64,000 nucleotides of DNA, taken from contig NZ_SLYW01000002.1 in NCBI RefSeq assembly GCF_004343585.1, forward strand, positions 992,001 to 1,056,000. The letters are read 5' to 3'. The stretch's first letter is position 1; every line of letters starts with the position of its first letter. The notes below the pieces were generated by a model. That model made no database searches and was not told the DNA's origin. It was given only the letters and a program-made list of their open reading frames with translations. Positions 8,390 to 59,557 of the stretch are shown here, in pieces. A program made the translations under genes and the position numbers. Source of the DNA: Neorhizobium sp. JUb45 (lineage in GTDB: Bacteria; Pseudomonadota; Alphaproteobacteria; Rhizobiales; Rhizobiaceae).

Positions 8390-8510
8390 CGCTTCGCCTT
8401 GATCTGACGGGCGAAGCGCTGTATGGGCACCAATATTCCACACGTAAGGCATGGGATCGTCCGGGAGAAATCCGGGCAGTTCCGCCCGGTGGCATTCTCA
8501 AAAGAGAGTG
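8390..8510 (+). promoter_or_regulatory. Structured leader upstream of rpsB
   Basis: The 185 bp between the pentapeptide gene and rpsB hold three inverted repeats: a 9-bp stem CGCTTCGCC/GGCGAAGCG (8390-8398, 8410-8418), a 6-bp stem CCGGGC/GCCCGG (8472-8477, 8484-8489) and a 7-bp stem with one G-T pair CATTCTC/GAGAGTG (8493-8499, 8504-8510, loop AAAA). In E. coli, ribosomal protein S2 represses its own rpsB-tsf message through a leader structure; a similar role here is inference. Confidence 0.45.
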
Positions 8511-8553
8511 CTGTTCGCCTTGCGGAGGTTCAACCGGTAAAGGATAACAAGGC

Positions 8554-33301: not shown

Positions 33302-34642
33302 ATGCCTATCAACATCACCATGCCTGCCCTTTCTCCGACCATGGAAGAGGGTAACCTCGCCAAGTGGCTGGTCAAGGAAGGCGACAAGGTCAAGTCCGGC
33401 GATGTGATCGCCGAGATCGAAACCGACAAGGCAACGATGGAAGTGGAAGCCGTGGACGAGGGCGTGATCGCCAAGATCGTTGTCCCGGCCGGCACCGAAG
33501 CGGTCAAGGTCAACGCCCTGATCGCCATCATCGCTGAAGAAGGCGAAGACGTTGCGGCCGCTGCCGCAGGTGCGGGTTCGTCCGCACCTGCGGCAGAAGC
33601 TGCTCCGGCTGAAAAGGCTGCAGACGCTCCGAAGGCCGAAAAGCCGGTGACCGATGCTGCTCCGGCACCGTCGACACCTGCACCGGTTGCTGCAGATGGC
33701 AAGCGCGTCTTCTCGTCGCCGCTTGCCCGTCGCCTGGCCAAGGAAGCCGGTCTCGACCTGTCTGCCGTCACCGGCACCGGCCCGCATGGCCGTGTCGTCA
33801 AGGCCGATATCGAGAAGGCTGCTGCCGGTGGTACGGCGAAGGCCGCTCCGGCGACTGCGTCTCAGGCTTCGGCCCCTGCCGCTGCCAAGGGTCCTTCGGA
33901 CGACAACGTGCTGAAGCTGTTTGCGGAAGGTTCCTACGAACTGCTGCCGCATGACGGCATGCGCAAGACGATCGCCGCACGCCTCACCGAGTCGACCCAG
34001 ACGGTTCCGTCCTACACGATCTCGATGGATTGCCTGCTCGACGCGCTGATGGCGCTCAGAGCCGAGATCAACAAGTCGGCGCCGGTGAAGAAGACGGAAA
34101 AGGGCGAGGTCCCGGCCTTCAAGCTTTCCGTCAACGACTTCATCATCAAGGCGATGGCGCTTGCACTGCGCGATGTTCCGATGGCAAATGCCTCGTGGAC
34201 CTCGACCGCTCGTGTTCTGCACAAACACGCCGACGTTGGCGTTGCGGTGTCGATCCCGGATGGCCTGATCACGCCGATCGTTCGCAAGGCGGAAACAAAA
34301 TCCCTGTCGGTCATCTCCAACGAGGTGAAGGACATGGCCAAGCGCGCCCGCGACAAGAAGCTGAAGCCGGAAGAGTACCAGGGTGGCACGACCTCCGTGT
34401 CCAACCTCGGCATGTTCGGCGTCTCCAACTTCACGTCGATCGTCAACCTGCCGCAGGCTTCGATCGTGTCGATCGGCGCCGGCGTCGAGAAGCCGGTCGT
34501 CAAGAACGGCGAGATCAAGGTCGGCACGGTGATGACGGCAACCTTTGCCTTCGACCACCGCGTCATCGATGGTGCACTCGGCGCGGAACTGGCTTCCGCG
34601 TTCAAGCGCTACATCGAAAACCCGATGTCGATGCTGGTGTAG
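33302..34642 (+). CDS. pdhC: Dihydrolipoamide acetyltransferase (E2) of pyruvate dehydrogenase
   Basis: Forms the PDH core and transfers acetyl from lipoamide to CoA. 446 residues: lipoyl domain (1-80, Lys43), flexible Ala/Pro linker, peripheral-subunit-binding domain (about 137-172, [21 protein letters not shown] then [12 protein letters not shown]), second linker, and the catalytic domain with His419 and Asp423 in FDHRVIDG. 14 bp after pdhB with an AAGGAAGGGTG ribosome-binding site. The E3 gene lies 1.5 kb downstream, past three small genes. Confidence 0.97.
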
Positions 34643-37942: not shown

Positions 37943-38917
37943 ATGGTCACAATTCTCGACAGGACGTCGCTCTCGGAAGAGAAGCGCATCCGTCACCCTG
38001 AAAAAGCGCACCGGCCGGATACCGAGGTCCTGCGCAAGCCCGAATGGATCCGCGTCAAGGCGCCGGTCTCCAAGGGTTATCAGGAAACCCGCTCGATCGT
38101 GAAGGAGCACAAGCTCGTCACGGTCTGCGAAGAGGCGGGCTGTCCCAACATCGGTGAGTGCTGGGATAAAAAGCACGCCACCTTTATGATCATGGGTGAA
38201 ATCTGTACCCGCGCCTGTGCCTTCTGCAATGTCGCCACAGGCAAGCCCAACGCACTCGATCTGGCCGAACCGGAAAACGTCGCCAAGGCGGTGAAGGAAA
38301 TGGGCCTGTCCCACGTCGTCATCACCTCGGTGGACCGTGACGATCTGGCCGATGGTGGTGCCGAGCACTTTGAAAAGGTGATCTGGGCGATCCGTGCGGC
38401 TTCACCGCTGACGACGATCGAGATCCTGACGCCGGACTTTTTGAAGAAGCCGGGTGCGCTGGAGCGTGTCGTTGCCGCCAAGCCCGATGTCTTTAACCAC
38501 AATATGGAAACGGTGCCGGGCAATTACCTGACGGTGCGCCCCGGTGCGCGTTATTTCCACTCCGTGCGCCTGCTGCAGCGGGTGAAGGAACTGGATCCGA
38601 CCATGTTCACCAAGTCCGGCATCATGGTTGGCCTTGGCGAAGAGCGCAATGAAGTGCTGCAGCTGATGGACGACCTCAGAACCGCTGACGTCGATTTCCT
38701 CACCATCGGCCAGTATCTCCAGCCGACGCGCAAGCATCACAAGGTCGAAAAGTTCGTCACGCCGGAAGAGTTCAAGTCCTACGAGACTGTCGCCTACACC
38801 AAAGGCTTTCTGATGGTTGCCTCCAGCCCGCTGACGCGCTCCTCGCACCATGCCGGTGACGATTTTGCGCGTCTGAGGGCGGCGCGCGAAAAGAAGGTTC
38901 TGGCGGCGGCCGAGTAG
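37943..38917 (+). CDS. lipA: Lipoyl synthase LipA
   Basis: Radical-SAM enzyme inserting two sulfurs into octanoyl groups on lipoyl domains such as those of PdhB and PdhC. 324 residues. The auxiliary-cluster motif [12 protein letters not shown] and the radical-SAM CTRACAFC motif are both present, as is the C-terminal RSSHHAGD block with the Ser ligand. ATG 37943 follows GCGGAGGAAC. Placement beside lpdA and the pdh genes matches its substrate proteins. It converges with a 60-residue gene after 5 bp. Confidence 0.97.
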
Positions 38918-38922
38918 GTTTT

Positions 38923-39105
38923 CTAGCCGGCAGCACCCTTGCCGGCGATCGCTTCACCGCGCTTCTTTTCGCGCAGATCGAAGCGGTTGCCGCGCGCTTC
39001 GGCTTTCGCCACTTCGATCAGATAGACGAGGAGCGGCAACTGGTTCATGTCGGCCAGTTGCCGTGCCGATTCGAGCATTTTCATGATCTGCGTAAAGTCG
39101 TCCAT
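38923..39105 (-). CDS. Small conserved-looking protein, 60 residues, unknown function
   Basis: Starts DDFTQIMKMLESARQLADMN with a mostly helical middle (PLLVYLIEVAKAEARG) and a basic C-terminus (DLREKKRGEAIAGKG). The start is preceded on the minus strand by GGAAGAAGAAG, an acceptable ribosome-binding site, and the frame fills the space to lipA exactly. No signal peptide, no recognisable motif. I judge it a real gene from its amino-acid composition and start context, but assign no function. Confidence 0.6.
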   Translation of the reverse strand: MDDFTQIMKMLESARQLADMNQLPLLVYLIEVAKAEARGNRFDLREKKRGEAIAGKGAAG

Positions 39106-39193
39106 GTGCTTCTTCTTCCGGAGTCATTCCGGTGTTTGAGTTTCTATTGCGCTTTTTACGCGAGATTTTGTGTTTGGATCAGGGCCGCGAGCT

Positions 39194-39307
39194 CCCAAAA
39201 CCACATTTTTGGGATGCAATGGTTAATATGTGAGCATATGTTAAAATAACAGTCAGTGTTGCTGACTGTTCCCACTTATGATGGCGGAGATGCGGCGTTG
39301 AAAACGC
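39194..39307. repeat. Run of four inverted repeats upstream of the COQ10-like gene
   Basis: In 114 bp: CCCAAAA/TTTTGGG (39194-39200, 39207-39213, loop CCACAT); ATATG/CATAT around TGAG (39226-39239); AACAGTCAG/CTGACTGTT (39248-39256, 39262-39270, loop TGTTG); and GCGTT/AACGC (39295-39299, 39303-39307). The stretch is more AT-rich than its neighbours. It lies in the 259-bp gap between two divergently read genes and could hold operators or encode a small structured RNA; neither is shown. Confidence 0.5.
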
Positions 39308-39364
39308 ACGCCTTTATGTGTTCTCGCGCTTGATCTTCGCAAACGGCGCGCTTAACTGCTCACC

Positions 39365-39811
39365 ATGCCCAAGTTCGAAAATCATCGCCCGGTCCGCCAT
39401 TCGCCTGAACAGATGTACGCGCTCGTGGCCGACATCGAGAAATATCCCGAGTTTCTGCCGCTCTGCGAGGCGCTCACTGTCCGCACGCGCAAGGAGCGCG
39501 ATGGCAAGGAACTGCTCGTTGCCGACATGACGGTCGGTTACAAGGCGATCAAGGAAACTTTCACCACCCAGGTTCTCCTCAATCCGGCCGAGCGGGTCAT
39601 CGATGTGAAATATATCGAAGGGCCGTTCAAATATCTCGACAACCGCTGGCGGTTCGAACCGGACGGGCAGGGCGGCTGCACAGTCCATTTCTTCATCGAT
39701 TACGAATTCAAGAGCATGATTCTGGGTGCCGTCATGGGCTCGATGTTCGACCGCGCCTTCCGCATGTTTGCTGAAGCATTCGAAACGCGGGCCGACAAGA
39801 TCTACGCCTGA
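39365..39811 (+). CDS. COQ10/RatA-like START-domain protein
   Basis: 148-residue protein of the polyketide-cyclase/START superfamily, in the branch containing mitochondrial COQ10 (ubiquinone binding, needed for respiration) and E. coli RatA. Motifs: RHSPEQMYALVADIEKYPEF near the start, VNE-like basic middle, and the family C-terminal helix SMFDRAFRMFAEAFETRA. In alphaproteobacteria a COQ10-like role in ubiquinone chemistry seems more likely than a toxin, but that is inference. It ends in a palindrome shared with convergent cinA. Confidence 0.87.
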   Translation: MPKFENHRPVRHSPEQMYALVADIEKYPEFLPLCEALTVRTRKERDGKELLVADMTVGYKAIKETFTTQVLLNPAERVIDVKYIEGPFKYLDNRWRFEPDGQGGCTVHFFIDYEFKSMILGAVMGSMFDRAFRMFAEAFETRADKIYA

Positions 39812-39822
39812 CGATCAGGCGT
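39804..39822. terminator. Palindrome spanning both stop codons of convergent genes
   Basis: ACGCCTGA/TCAGGCGT, an 8-bp perfect stem with a 3-base loop CGA. The TGA at 39809-39811 ends the COQ10-like gene, and the complement of 39815-39817 ends cinA. The two genes are only 3 bp apart, so one structure could mark both transcript ends. There is no T run. Confidence 0.45.
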
Positions 39823-40315
39823 CGGCGATGTCCTGAAGCATTTCGAATGCGGTACGCAGCGTGGCAAGTCGCACGCTGCTTCGGCCGATATCCCCAAAGC
39901 GCATTTCACGGTGAATGGTTTTGCCGTCGCGATTGCCGGCGGCAAGATGCACGAGGCCGACGGGTTTTGCATCAGACCCGCCACCCGGACCAGCTATGCC
40001 GGTAACGGCTACGGAGATCTGTGCGCGAGAATTCTTCAAGGCACCGGCGGCCATTTCCAGGGCCGTTTCGCGAGACACGGCACCAAACGTCTTCAATGTC
40101 TCGTTGCTGACGCCGAGAATCTCCGCCTTGGCTTCATTGGTATAGGTCACCAGCCCTCTGTCGACGACGGTGGAGGAGCCGGCAATCTCGGTCAGTGCAC
40201 CGGCAATCAAGCCGCCTGTGCAGGATTCCGCCGTCACCACCATCAAGCCTTTCGCCGTAAACTCGGCGATGATCTTTGCGGCTGTCGCTTTGATATCCGG
40301 CGGAAACAGGCTCAT
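39815..40315 (-). CDS. CinA-family nicotinamide-nucleotide amidohydrolase (PncC-like)
   Basis: Deamidates nicotinamide mononucleotide in the pyridine-nucleotide salvage cycle (known for PncC). 166 residues, a stand-alone C-terminal CinA domain without the N-terminal half of full CinA. Motifs: VVTAESCTGGLIAGALTEI (nucleophilic Ser region), GLVTYTNEAKAE, and VAVTGIAGPGGGSDAKPVG. The start ATG at 40315 directly follows the ispDF stop (1-bp gap), so it is co-transcribed with ispDF. The frame is open further upstream but inside ispDF. Confidence 0.93.
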   Translation of the reverse strand: MSLFPPDIKATAAKIIAEFTAKGLMVVTAESCTGGLIAGALTEIAGSSTVVDRGLVTYTNEAKAEILGVSNETLKTFGAVSRETALEMAAGALKNSRAQISVAVTGIAGPGGGSDAKPVGLVHLAAGNRDGKTIHREMRFGDIGRSSVRLATLRTAFEMLQDIADA

Positions 40316-40316
40316 C

Positions 40317-41516
40317 TCAATCCTTCTGGAAGACGACGGTCGCAGTTGCGATCGCAGCAATGCCTTCGCGGCGGCCGACAAAACCGATCGTCTCATTGGT
40401 TGTCGCCTTCACCGAACAACGCTCCATGTCGATGTCAAGAAACTCGGAAAGATTGCGGCGCATCGCTTCCCGGTGCGGGCCGACCTTGGGGGCTTCAGCG
40501 ATCAGGGAAACGTCGGCATTCATGATTGTGCCGCCATGTTCGCGCACGATCTTTGCCGCATGCTCGAGAAAGATACGCGACGCGGCCCCCTTCCACTGCA
40601 TGTCGGACGGAGGAAAGTGATCGCCGATATCGCCGGCACCACAGGTGGCCAGCAGCGCGTCGGTCAGCGCATGCAAGGCCACGTCGGCATCCGAATGGCC
40701 GCTGAGTTTCTGATCATGCGGCATGAAGACACCGCACAGTGTCACGCCGTCGCCGGGCACGAGCTGGTGCACGTCGTAACCGTTGCCGGTGCGCACGTCG
40801 GGCAGGGGCATCCGTGTCGCCTGTCTGGAAAGCCGCTCGTCTGCCATTTCTATATCCCGTTTCACTGTCAGTTTGATGTTGTCGGCCGAACCTTCGATCA
40901 GAACCACCGGCAGGCCGGCCCATTCGGCAATCGATGCATCGTCGGTAAAATCGTCGCGGCGCAGCGCTGCGGCCTTCTCGTGTGCTGATCGGATCTCGTT
41001 GAGGGCAAAACTCTGCGGCGTCTGGGCAGCATAGAGGCCGGCTCGTGGAACGGTCTCATGCACCAGGCCATCGGCTCCACCGCGTTTCAGCGTGTCGGCC
41101 ACCGACATTGCCGGCAGAACACCGTCATGACCGGCATCGAGCGTGGCAGCGATTCTGTCCAGCAGCGCGAGATCGACAAAGGGCCGCGCTGCGTCATGGA
41201 TCATGACATGTGTCGCACCGGTGGCCGCGAGCGCGCGCAATCCCTCATAGACAGAGCGCTGCCTGGTATCGCCGCCAAATGTCGTCAGCACTTCCTTCGC
41301 GCGCGGAAGGGTCGATACGGATGCGGCATAAAGTCCCTCGTCGTCGGGATGGATGACCGTGACGATCGGGCCGCTTCTGTGCCAGTTCAGAAAAGTTTCC
41401 AGCGTATGCGCAATGACCGGGCGTCCGCCGATCGGGCGATATTGTTTCGGGCCCTCTTGCGGAGATCCGGCCCGTTCGCCGCGTCCCGCGGCTACGATGA
41501 CGATGCCGATTGTCAT
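40317..41516 (-). CDS. ispDF: Bifunctional IspD/IspF enzyme of the MEP isoprenoid pathway
   Basis: 399-residue fusion. The N-terminal half (about 1-225) is 2-C-methyl-D-erythritol 4-phosphate cytidylyltransferase, with [12 protein letters not shown] and DAARPFV. The C-terminal half (about 240-399) is 2-C-methyl-D-erythritol 2,4-cyclodiphosphate synthase, with [13 protein letters not shown] and [16 protein letters not shown] (metal-binding Asp/His). The fusion is known from alphaproteobacteria and epsilonproteobacteria. Products feed ubiquinone and the polyprenyl made by uppS. Divergent from dusB across 158 bp. Confidence 0.97.
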
Positions 41517-58634: not shown

Positions 58635-59447
58635 ATGAACGCTCCCGCCAAGCCTGAAGAATTCGCAGCAAAAATCCCGGACGGTGTGTTTGCCGAGACG
58701 GTTTTGTCCGTCGAGCATTACACCGACCACCTTTTTCGCTTCCGCATGACGCGGCCGGCCGGTTACCGTTTCCGCTCGGGCGAGTTTGCGATGATCGGGC
58801 TGATGGTGGGTGAAAAGCCGATCTACCGTGCCTATTCGATCGCCAGCCCCGCCTGGGACGAGGAACTCGAATTTTTCTCGATCAAGGTGCCGGATGGTCC
58901 GCTGACCTCGCATCTCCAGAAGATCAAGCCGGGCGATACCGTGCTGATGCGCAAGAAGCCGACCGGTACACTGGTTCTCGATGCGCTCACGCCCGGCAAG
59001 CGGCTCTACATGTTTTCGACCGGCACCGGCATCGCGCCGTTTGCCAGCCTGATCCGCGACCCGGAAACCTATGAAAAATTCGAGGAAGTCATCCTCACCC
59101 ATACCTGCCGCGAAGTGGCGGAGCTGAAATATGGTTTTGACCTCGTGGACGAGATCAGGAACCACGAATTCCTGTCGGAAATCGTCGGCGACAAGCTGAA
59201 ACTTTATTCGACCGTGACCCGCGAAGACTACCCGTTCCAGGGCCGCATCACCGACCTCATCGACAATGGCAAACTGTTTGCCGATCTCGGTGTGCCGGCG
59301 CTCGACCCGGCGGTGGATCGCGGCATGATCTGCGGCTCGGCGGCGATGCTGAAGGACACCAAGGAACGTCTGGAACGCGCCGGCCTGACCGAAGGCGCCA
59401 ACAACAAGCCGAGCGAGTTTGTCATTGAGCGGGCGTTTGTGGGGTGA
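58635..59447 (+). CDS. fpr: Ferredoxin--NADP reductase
   Basis: FAD flavoprotein shuttling electrons between NADPH and ferredoxin or flavodoxin; it can supply electrons to CysI and protects against oxidative stress. 270 residues. FAD-binding RAYSIASP and the PLTSHLQKIKPGD turn, then the NADP-binding half with FSTGTGIAPFASLIRD and CGSAAMLKD. Without a signal peptide or ferredoxin domain. ATG 58635 follows GACCGGCCTA, a weak ribosome-binding site. A repeat element begins a few bases after the stop. Confidence 0.95.
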   Translation: MNAPAKPEEFAAKIPDGVFAETVLSVEHYTDHLFRFRMTRPAGYRFRSGEFAMIGLMVGEKPIYRAYSIASPAWDEELEFFSIKVPDGPLTSHLQKIKPGDTVLMRKKPTGTLVLDALTPGKRLYMFSTGTGIAPFASLIRDPETYEKFEEVILTHTCREVAELKYGFDLVDEIRNHEFLSEIVGDKLKLYSTVTREDYPFQGRITDLIDNGKLFADLGVPALDPAVDRGMICGSAAMLKDTKERLERAGLTEGANNKPSEFVIERAFVG

Positions 59448-59454
59448 CGAGCGG

Positions 59455-59517
59455 TCGGGCGAAAGCCCGAGCAATCGATCCAGTGAATCGATTGCAGCGA
59501 GGAACGCCCTGAGCGTT
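59455..59517. repeat. Mosaic of three palindromes after fpr
   Basis: TCGGGC/GCCCGA with a GAAA tetraloop (59455-59460, 59465-59470); GCAATCGAT/ATCGATTGC (59471-59479, 59487-59495, loop CCAGTGA); AACGC/GCGTT (59503-59507, 59513-59517, loop CCTGA). Three adjoining hairpins of different sequence suggest a mosaic intergenic repeat of the rhizobial type. No second copy is seen in this window. Confidence 0.65.
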
Positions 59518-59557
59518 AGCGAAGGGCCGGGCGCGGCCACAAAAACAAGCATACACG

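Follow-up and report, generated by a model that had tools for sequence, protein, structure and literature searches.

A probable divergent promoter region with one conserved putative protein-binding site between a small orphan gene and ratA in Neorhizobium sp. JUb45

The interval 39194-39307 of the Neorhizobium sp. JUb45 window (the whole 64,000-nucleotide stretch of DNA that was analysed) lies inside a 259-bp intergenic gap, 39106-39364, which separates two divergent genes. To the left, on the minus strand, is a 60-aa open reading frame (38923-39105), beyond which lies a gene that we take, from its sequence, to be lipA. To the right, on the plus strand, is a 148-aa ratA-like gene (39365-39811), followed by a convergent minus-strand open reading frame (39815-40396) that is presumably cinA-like, again judging by its sequence. 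The interval has a G+C content of 43%, while 200-bp windows of the neighboring genes mostly lie at 55-64%, which bears out the original prediction of an AT-rich island between divergent genes. The four inverted repeats on which that prediction focused are likewise all present where it had placed them. The features discussed below are the following.

38923-39105, minus strand: conserved 60-aa orphan gene (MDDFTQIMKMLESARQLADM..., MDDFTQIMKML...), divergent to ratA; open reading frame
39153-39181, minus strand: predicted core promoter of the orphan gene, with a weak -35 element TGATCC (39181-39176), a 17-nt spacer and a -10 element TAAAAA (39158-39153); called by eye from conservation
39193-39214, no strand: palindrome 1, TCCCAAAA-CCACAT-TTTTGGGA, 8-bp arms; originally noted as CCCAAAA/TTTTGGG, which corresponds to 39194-39213
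39196-39231, minus strand: conserved block CAAAACCACATTTTTGGGATGCAATGGTTAATATGT, containing TTAACCAT (39226-39219 on the minus strand); probable protein-binding site, from a four-genome alignment
39226-39239, no strand: palindrome 2, ATATG-TGAG-CATAT, from the inverted-repeat search
39248-39270, no strand: palindrome 3, AACAGTCAG-TGTTG-CTGACTGTT, 9-bp arms; lineage-specific spacer hairpin
39295-39307, no strand: palindrome 4, GCGTT-GAA-AACGC, overlapping a TTGAA that is identical in all four genomes
39329-39357, plus strand: predicted ratA core promoter, with CTTGAT (39329-39334), a 17-nt spacer and TTAACT (39352-39357), 7 nt before the ATG; from positions in 81 sequences
39365-39811, plus strand: ratA / Coq10-like START-domain gene, 148 aa; Pfam PF03364, E 9e-36

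For the ratA-like protein, the best NCBIfam model is PRK10724 (RatA), at 84.4 bits and thus below its cut-off of 258. As for the orphan protein, searches of Pfam, NCBIfam and PDB gave no match with an E value of 1 or less. By tblastn, 39 of 80 loci have its gene in the 1.5 kb before ratA (at only 35% identity in one of them, L058), including loci titled Agrobacterium, Rhizobium and Neorhizobium, and it occurs in 28 of the 56 genomes searched, our own included, all 28 of them in the genus of the window. Among the matches listed by a literature search, no title or abstract concerns the region, and nothing on the orphan gene or ratA was found in the accessible part of PMC10117765.

The gap itself is clade-specific at the DNA level. 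Matches to the 259 bp were found in four of 57 genomes of the genus, again including our own. At the family level, two of 394 genomes besides our own match it, over 31 and 22 bases, and both of these matches are located in unrelated open reading frames. A blastn search against plasmids returned no match, and within its own genome the gap matches only itself. For comparison, we aligned the window with the nearest relatives found by means of the ratA protein, namely Endobacterium cereale (L007), Neorhizobium huautlense DS1307 (L005) and isolate AFS080716 (L006), the last of which matches the gap over only 124 of the 259 bases. A plus-strand open reading frame at 39058-39249 was considered as a coding candidate and rejected: it is open in L005, but its fourth codon is a stop in L007 and the frame is lost in L006.

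Palindrome density, which had been described as far above that of the rest of the window, was compared with chance in several ways. In dinucleotide shuffles of the 114 bp, the observed summed arm length of 26 was reached in none of 2000, four hairpins in three of 2000, and a 9-bp arm in six of 2000. Since none of 3363 window stretches on a 19-bp grid reaches a summed arm length of 26, 39194-39307 is the densest stretch of the window by this measure, while at least four hairpins occur in 14 of the 3363. The second densest stretch, 59433-59546, has summed arms of 25. The window also contains 29 perfect hairpins with arms of at least 8 bp and loops of 3-10, the longest of which is a 15-bp hairpin at 33561-33596 (CTGCCGCAGGTGCGG/CCGCACCTGCGGCAG). 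When whole 64-kb windows were shuffled locally and scanned in steps of 5 bp, a spacing at which the real window has a maximum of 25, 11 of 120 contained a stretch scoring at least 26. The cluster is therefore not exceptional in a scan of 64 kb, and a comparable one is expected about once per ten such windows. Consequently, the first rank by summed arms stands, but the claim of a density far above the rest was overstated, considering the runner-up at 25, the 29 hairpins and the shuffled windows.

We also considered that the palindromes might belong to a dispersed palindromic repeat of the REP or Bru-RS type, and rejected this candidate. The core of palindrome 1, CCAAAA-N6-TTTTGG, and its control pattern each have a single occurrence in the genome, and palindrome 3 has, besides itself, four near copies with two to three mismatches against three for its control. 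The gap is single copy, and so is the conserved block, at up to 3 mismatches when 26 of its bases were searched.

The original prediction had pointed to conservation in relatives as something to examine, and the palindromes as such proved not to be conserved in the three relatives. Counting G-T pairs as well, and listing the window, L007, L005 and L006 in that order, palindrome 1 keeps 8, 7, 6 and 7 of its 8 pairs, palindrome 2 keeps 5, 5, 5 and 2 of 5 (two through G-T), palindrome 3 keeps 9, 5, 8 and 4 of 9, and palindrome 4 keeps 5, 5, 3 and 2 of 5. None of the three nearest relatives found thus preserves palindrome 3, the strongest of the four, in full, and only two of its 23 positions are identical in the four genomes. 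Palindrome 2 has a conserved left arm and a right arm that is not. In palindrome 1, variation among the four genomes is confined to the three outer pairs, the five inner pairs and the loop being invariant. Its outermost pair forms in the window alone, the next is broken once and the third is a wobble once. The right arm does not vary at all, so that all the changes fall in 39193-39195, the outer end of the left arm.

The proposal of a small structured RNA encoded here found no support in these data. Its best evidence is a covariation count, made as the original prediction had suggested on the aligned sequences. Both-sided changes affect five pairs, four of them in helix 3, of which L005 retains 8 of 9 pairs, but as many were reached by 27 of 500 shuffles, and the same helix falls to 5 and 4 pairs in L007 and L006. 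The covariation score of 0.265 was reached by 24 of 500 shuffles, with slid versions attaining at most 0.123, and the overall count of 79.6% of cells paired by 68 of 500. This evidence is weak, because a single one of the four aligned sequences supplied the tested structure and because the L007 spacer folds worse, and that of L006 no better, than its shuffles. The sequence of the window itself folds better than its shuffles (z of -2.3 on the plus and -3.1 on the minus strand); in the aligned RNA fold, however, the z of -3.6 for the window is followed by -2.2 in L005, -0.2 in L006 and +1.4 in L007. Palindrome 1, moreover, does not look like a helix under selection, since its loop is invariant and changes affect only its outer pairs. 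Rfam gives no match at gathering score in 39194-39307; the sole sub-threshold match there, to a model of a long noncoding RNA, CLRN1-AS1, scores 16.5 bits (E 0.088), where the cut-off is 48. The only Rfam match of the window at gathering score is an rpsB sRNA (RF01815) at 8439-8549, with 49.1 bits. In addition, a terminator scan of 38900-39900 listed two sites, with 1.6 expected, neither of which falls within the interval. Its helices are not kept in L007 and L006, and a structured RNA is highly improbable here.

The same scan bears on palindrome 3 as an intrinsic terminator, a candidate that we rejected in its plain form because the scan does not list it. In a weaker version, palindrome 3 and the ATTTTAAC that comes after it on the minus strand would stop antisense transcription that reads through ratA before it enters the orphan gene. 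The 9-bp stem with its tail, the presence of a convergent minus-strand open reading frame beyond ratA (39815-40396) and the retention of ATTTTAAC in L005 and L007 all fit such a role. The tail, however, has four T in eight bases where the scan requires five, and the stem is down to 5 of 9 pairs in L007 and 4 in L006, so that we regard a weak terminator as very unlikely.

What is conserved in the gap is a 36-bp block, 39196-39231, which takes in the loop and most of the arms of palindrome 1 together with the left arm of palindrome 2. In the four genomes, 34 of its 36 positions are identical, as against 22 of 84 in the adjoining 39232-39315 (Fisher p 8e-13, a value to be read in the light of block limits picked after the alignment had been seen). 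Against L006, the window retains the same 34 of 36 positions in the block and 33 of 61 fourfold sites in ratA (p 1e-5). Conservation of the loop matches that of the arms, and the outer left arm is variable. Such a pattern suits a site bound by a protein better than it suits a helix, and the block is probably a site of that kind. Of the clustered operators proposed originally, one is thus plausible, in the form of this strongly conserved block, and beyond it the proposal finds no support.

Could the palindrome itself be the operator? A dimeric repressor of one or both divergent genes might bind palindrome 1, and perhaps palindrome 3, in which case the TTAA box described below would be incidental. 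Palindrome 1 does lie largely in the block, upstream of the leftward -35 element, and its five inner pairs are invariant. A loop conserved like the arms and a variable outer left arm are not what such an operator would lead one to expect, no second CCAAAA-N6-TTTTGG exists in the genome, and palindrome 3 is neither intact in the relatives nor present in near copies above the control level. We therefore consider a repressor operator of this kind unlikely.

Within the block, the sequence TTAACCAT (39226-39219 on the minus strand) is invariant in the four genomes. Its presence alone is unremarkable, as one copy was found in the window against 0.47 expected, and 36 of 100 window shuffles contained at least one. 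Its position draws attention when 40 sequences upstream of the orphan gene are compared. Nineteen of the 40 have TTAA-N6-TTAA at -105 to -116 (0.16 expected from shuffles), four, all of the clade of the window, have TTAACCAT at -121/-122 (0.14 expected), and three have TAA-N7-TTAAC (0.06 expected), twice at -126/-128 and once at -79. TTAA-N7-TTAA occurs in none of the 40, and 14 have none of the three forms found. These counts are not independent, because the 40 sequences are related. Three box forms at about one place make a regulator that binds TTAA boxes worth testing, and no more than that.

Such boxes are reminiscent of the sites of CtrA. According to PMC6180460 and PMC11527210, CtrA motifs are TTAA-N7-TTAA and the ungapped variant TTAACCAT, and PMC3616915 gives TAA-N7-TTAAC as the consensus in Sinorhizobium meliloti and a low affinity for spacings other than 7 in Caulobacter. 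The main text of PMC4433202, as far as accessible, yielded no motif letters. The box at 39226-39219 is an exact copy of the ungapped variant, and TTAA-N6-TTAA and TAA-N7-TTAAC stand at similar places elsewhere. In contrast to alphaproteobacterial CtrA boxes, TTAA-N7-TTAA is missing from the 40 upstream sequences, and whereas CtrA activator sites are reported near the -35 element (PMC6180460), the box here (39219-39226) precedes the predicted -35 (39176-39181) by about 38 bp and lies at about -76 from the inferred start. Since the box is that far upstream, we do not file the region as a CtrA promoter; the conserved site is possibly of the CtrA type. The S. meliloti Motif 2 described in PMC3616915 offers another comparison. 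It has a central TTTGTTAACCAT and is found upstream of 19 genes, within 40 nt of their starts. TTAACCAT is common to both, but the window has CATATTAACCAT, in which no TTTG precedes it, and a greater distance separates the box of the window from the inferred start. With TTNGTTAACCAT occurring four times in the genome, as often as its control, Motif 2 is not enriched and was set aside.

The orphan gene that this site would serve has a predicted core promoter whose CTGATCC and TCGCGTAAAAAGCG (minus strand) are kept in the three near relatives. The boxes of the window align with TGATCC-N17-TACAAT-like and GCGTAnAA-like boxes of other Rhizobiaceae, in an alignment of 28 of the 40 sequences. A scan with the Escherichia coli-type sigma-70 consensus found no promoter here, so our call rests on conservation.

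On the other side of the gap, the predicted ratA promoter was tallied in 81 sequences, that is, the window and 80 loci. The boxes have constant places, -36 and -13, in almost every one of these Rhizobiaceae sequences. The first base of CTTG is at -36 in 75 of them and one base further upstream, at -37, in five, and CTTG is missing at -34 to -37 only in L052, while the -10 box has a T at -12 in 75, an A at -11 in 79 and a T at -8 in 74. Because TTAACT ends 7 nt before the ATG, transcription is predicted to start on or next to the ATG, giving a leaderless ratA mRNA. The arrangement, with its 17-nt spacer, is the one seen in rhizobial leaderless promoters, in which the -10 element lies about 7 nt before the ATG. 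In S. meliloti, 171 leaderless mRNAs were mapped (PMC3616915); the ratA promoter resembles theirs in the place of its -10 element, the start being a prediction here.

Some of the conservation of the ratA boxes has another source. In L028, a 197-aa P-loop gene (898-1491), with AAA matches below cut-off only, separates ratA from the orphan gene, and the ratA promoter boxes fall within its final codons. As the boxes encode the end of the upstream gene there, part of their conservation elsewhere is coding. Among the 39 loci, the distance between the orphan gene and ratA is 175-328 bp in 15 and 748-913 bp in 24, so that 24 loci have room for a gene of this size and the window and the other 15 do not. 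We asked whether the spacer of the window might be a relic of the P-loop gene. Of 13 donors, only L017 scored well (2 of 200 shuffles as high), a score explicable by 13 trials, and for the three relatives the best result was 24 of 200; a relic is therefore not supported. Our own genome holds only distant relatives of the P-loop gene (best 27% identity, E 5.5e-7).

Taken together, we read 39106-39364 as a divergent promoter region with one conserved putative protein-binding site, not a structured RNA, with a probability of roughly two in three. Leftward, the weak -35 promoter TGATCC-N17-TAAAAA would drive the 60-aa orphan gene, whose expression would most likely be tuned by a transcription factor binding the block 39196-39231 upstream of it. 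Rightward, CTTGAT-N17-TTAACT would drive ratA, the transcript beginning at or next to the ATG. A rapidly evolving spacer would separate the two promoters, and palindromes 3 and 4, which lie in it, appear to have no conserved role. Several findings speak against this reading: the footprint is clade-specific (four of 57 genus genomes), 14 of 40 upstream sequences are free of the three box forms, the consensus promoter scan is empty, the box is far from the -35 element, and the conservation of the ratA boxes in other genomes is partly coding. As to the regulator, CtrA or another TTAA-box protein is a tentative identification, and one that we would expect to fail more often than to succeed. The fuller proposal, in which a TTAA-box regulator, probably CtrA, would control the orphan protein through a site that changed its form while roughly keeping its place, is likewise doubtful.

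The region is thus most likely an ordinary divergent promoter region that provides a modest lead on a small orphan gene. The focus shifts from the palindromes to a probable regulator site before a small protein and to a probable leaderless ratA promoter. Should the TTAA box not be a CtrA site, the region would be ordinary; should it be one, it would offer a starting point for work on an unstudied small protein of rhizobia. If control by such a regulator were true, the Rhizobiaceae would have, in the 60-aa protein, an undescribed small protein linked to the cell cycle.
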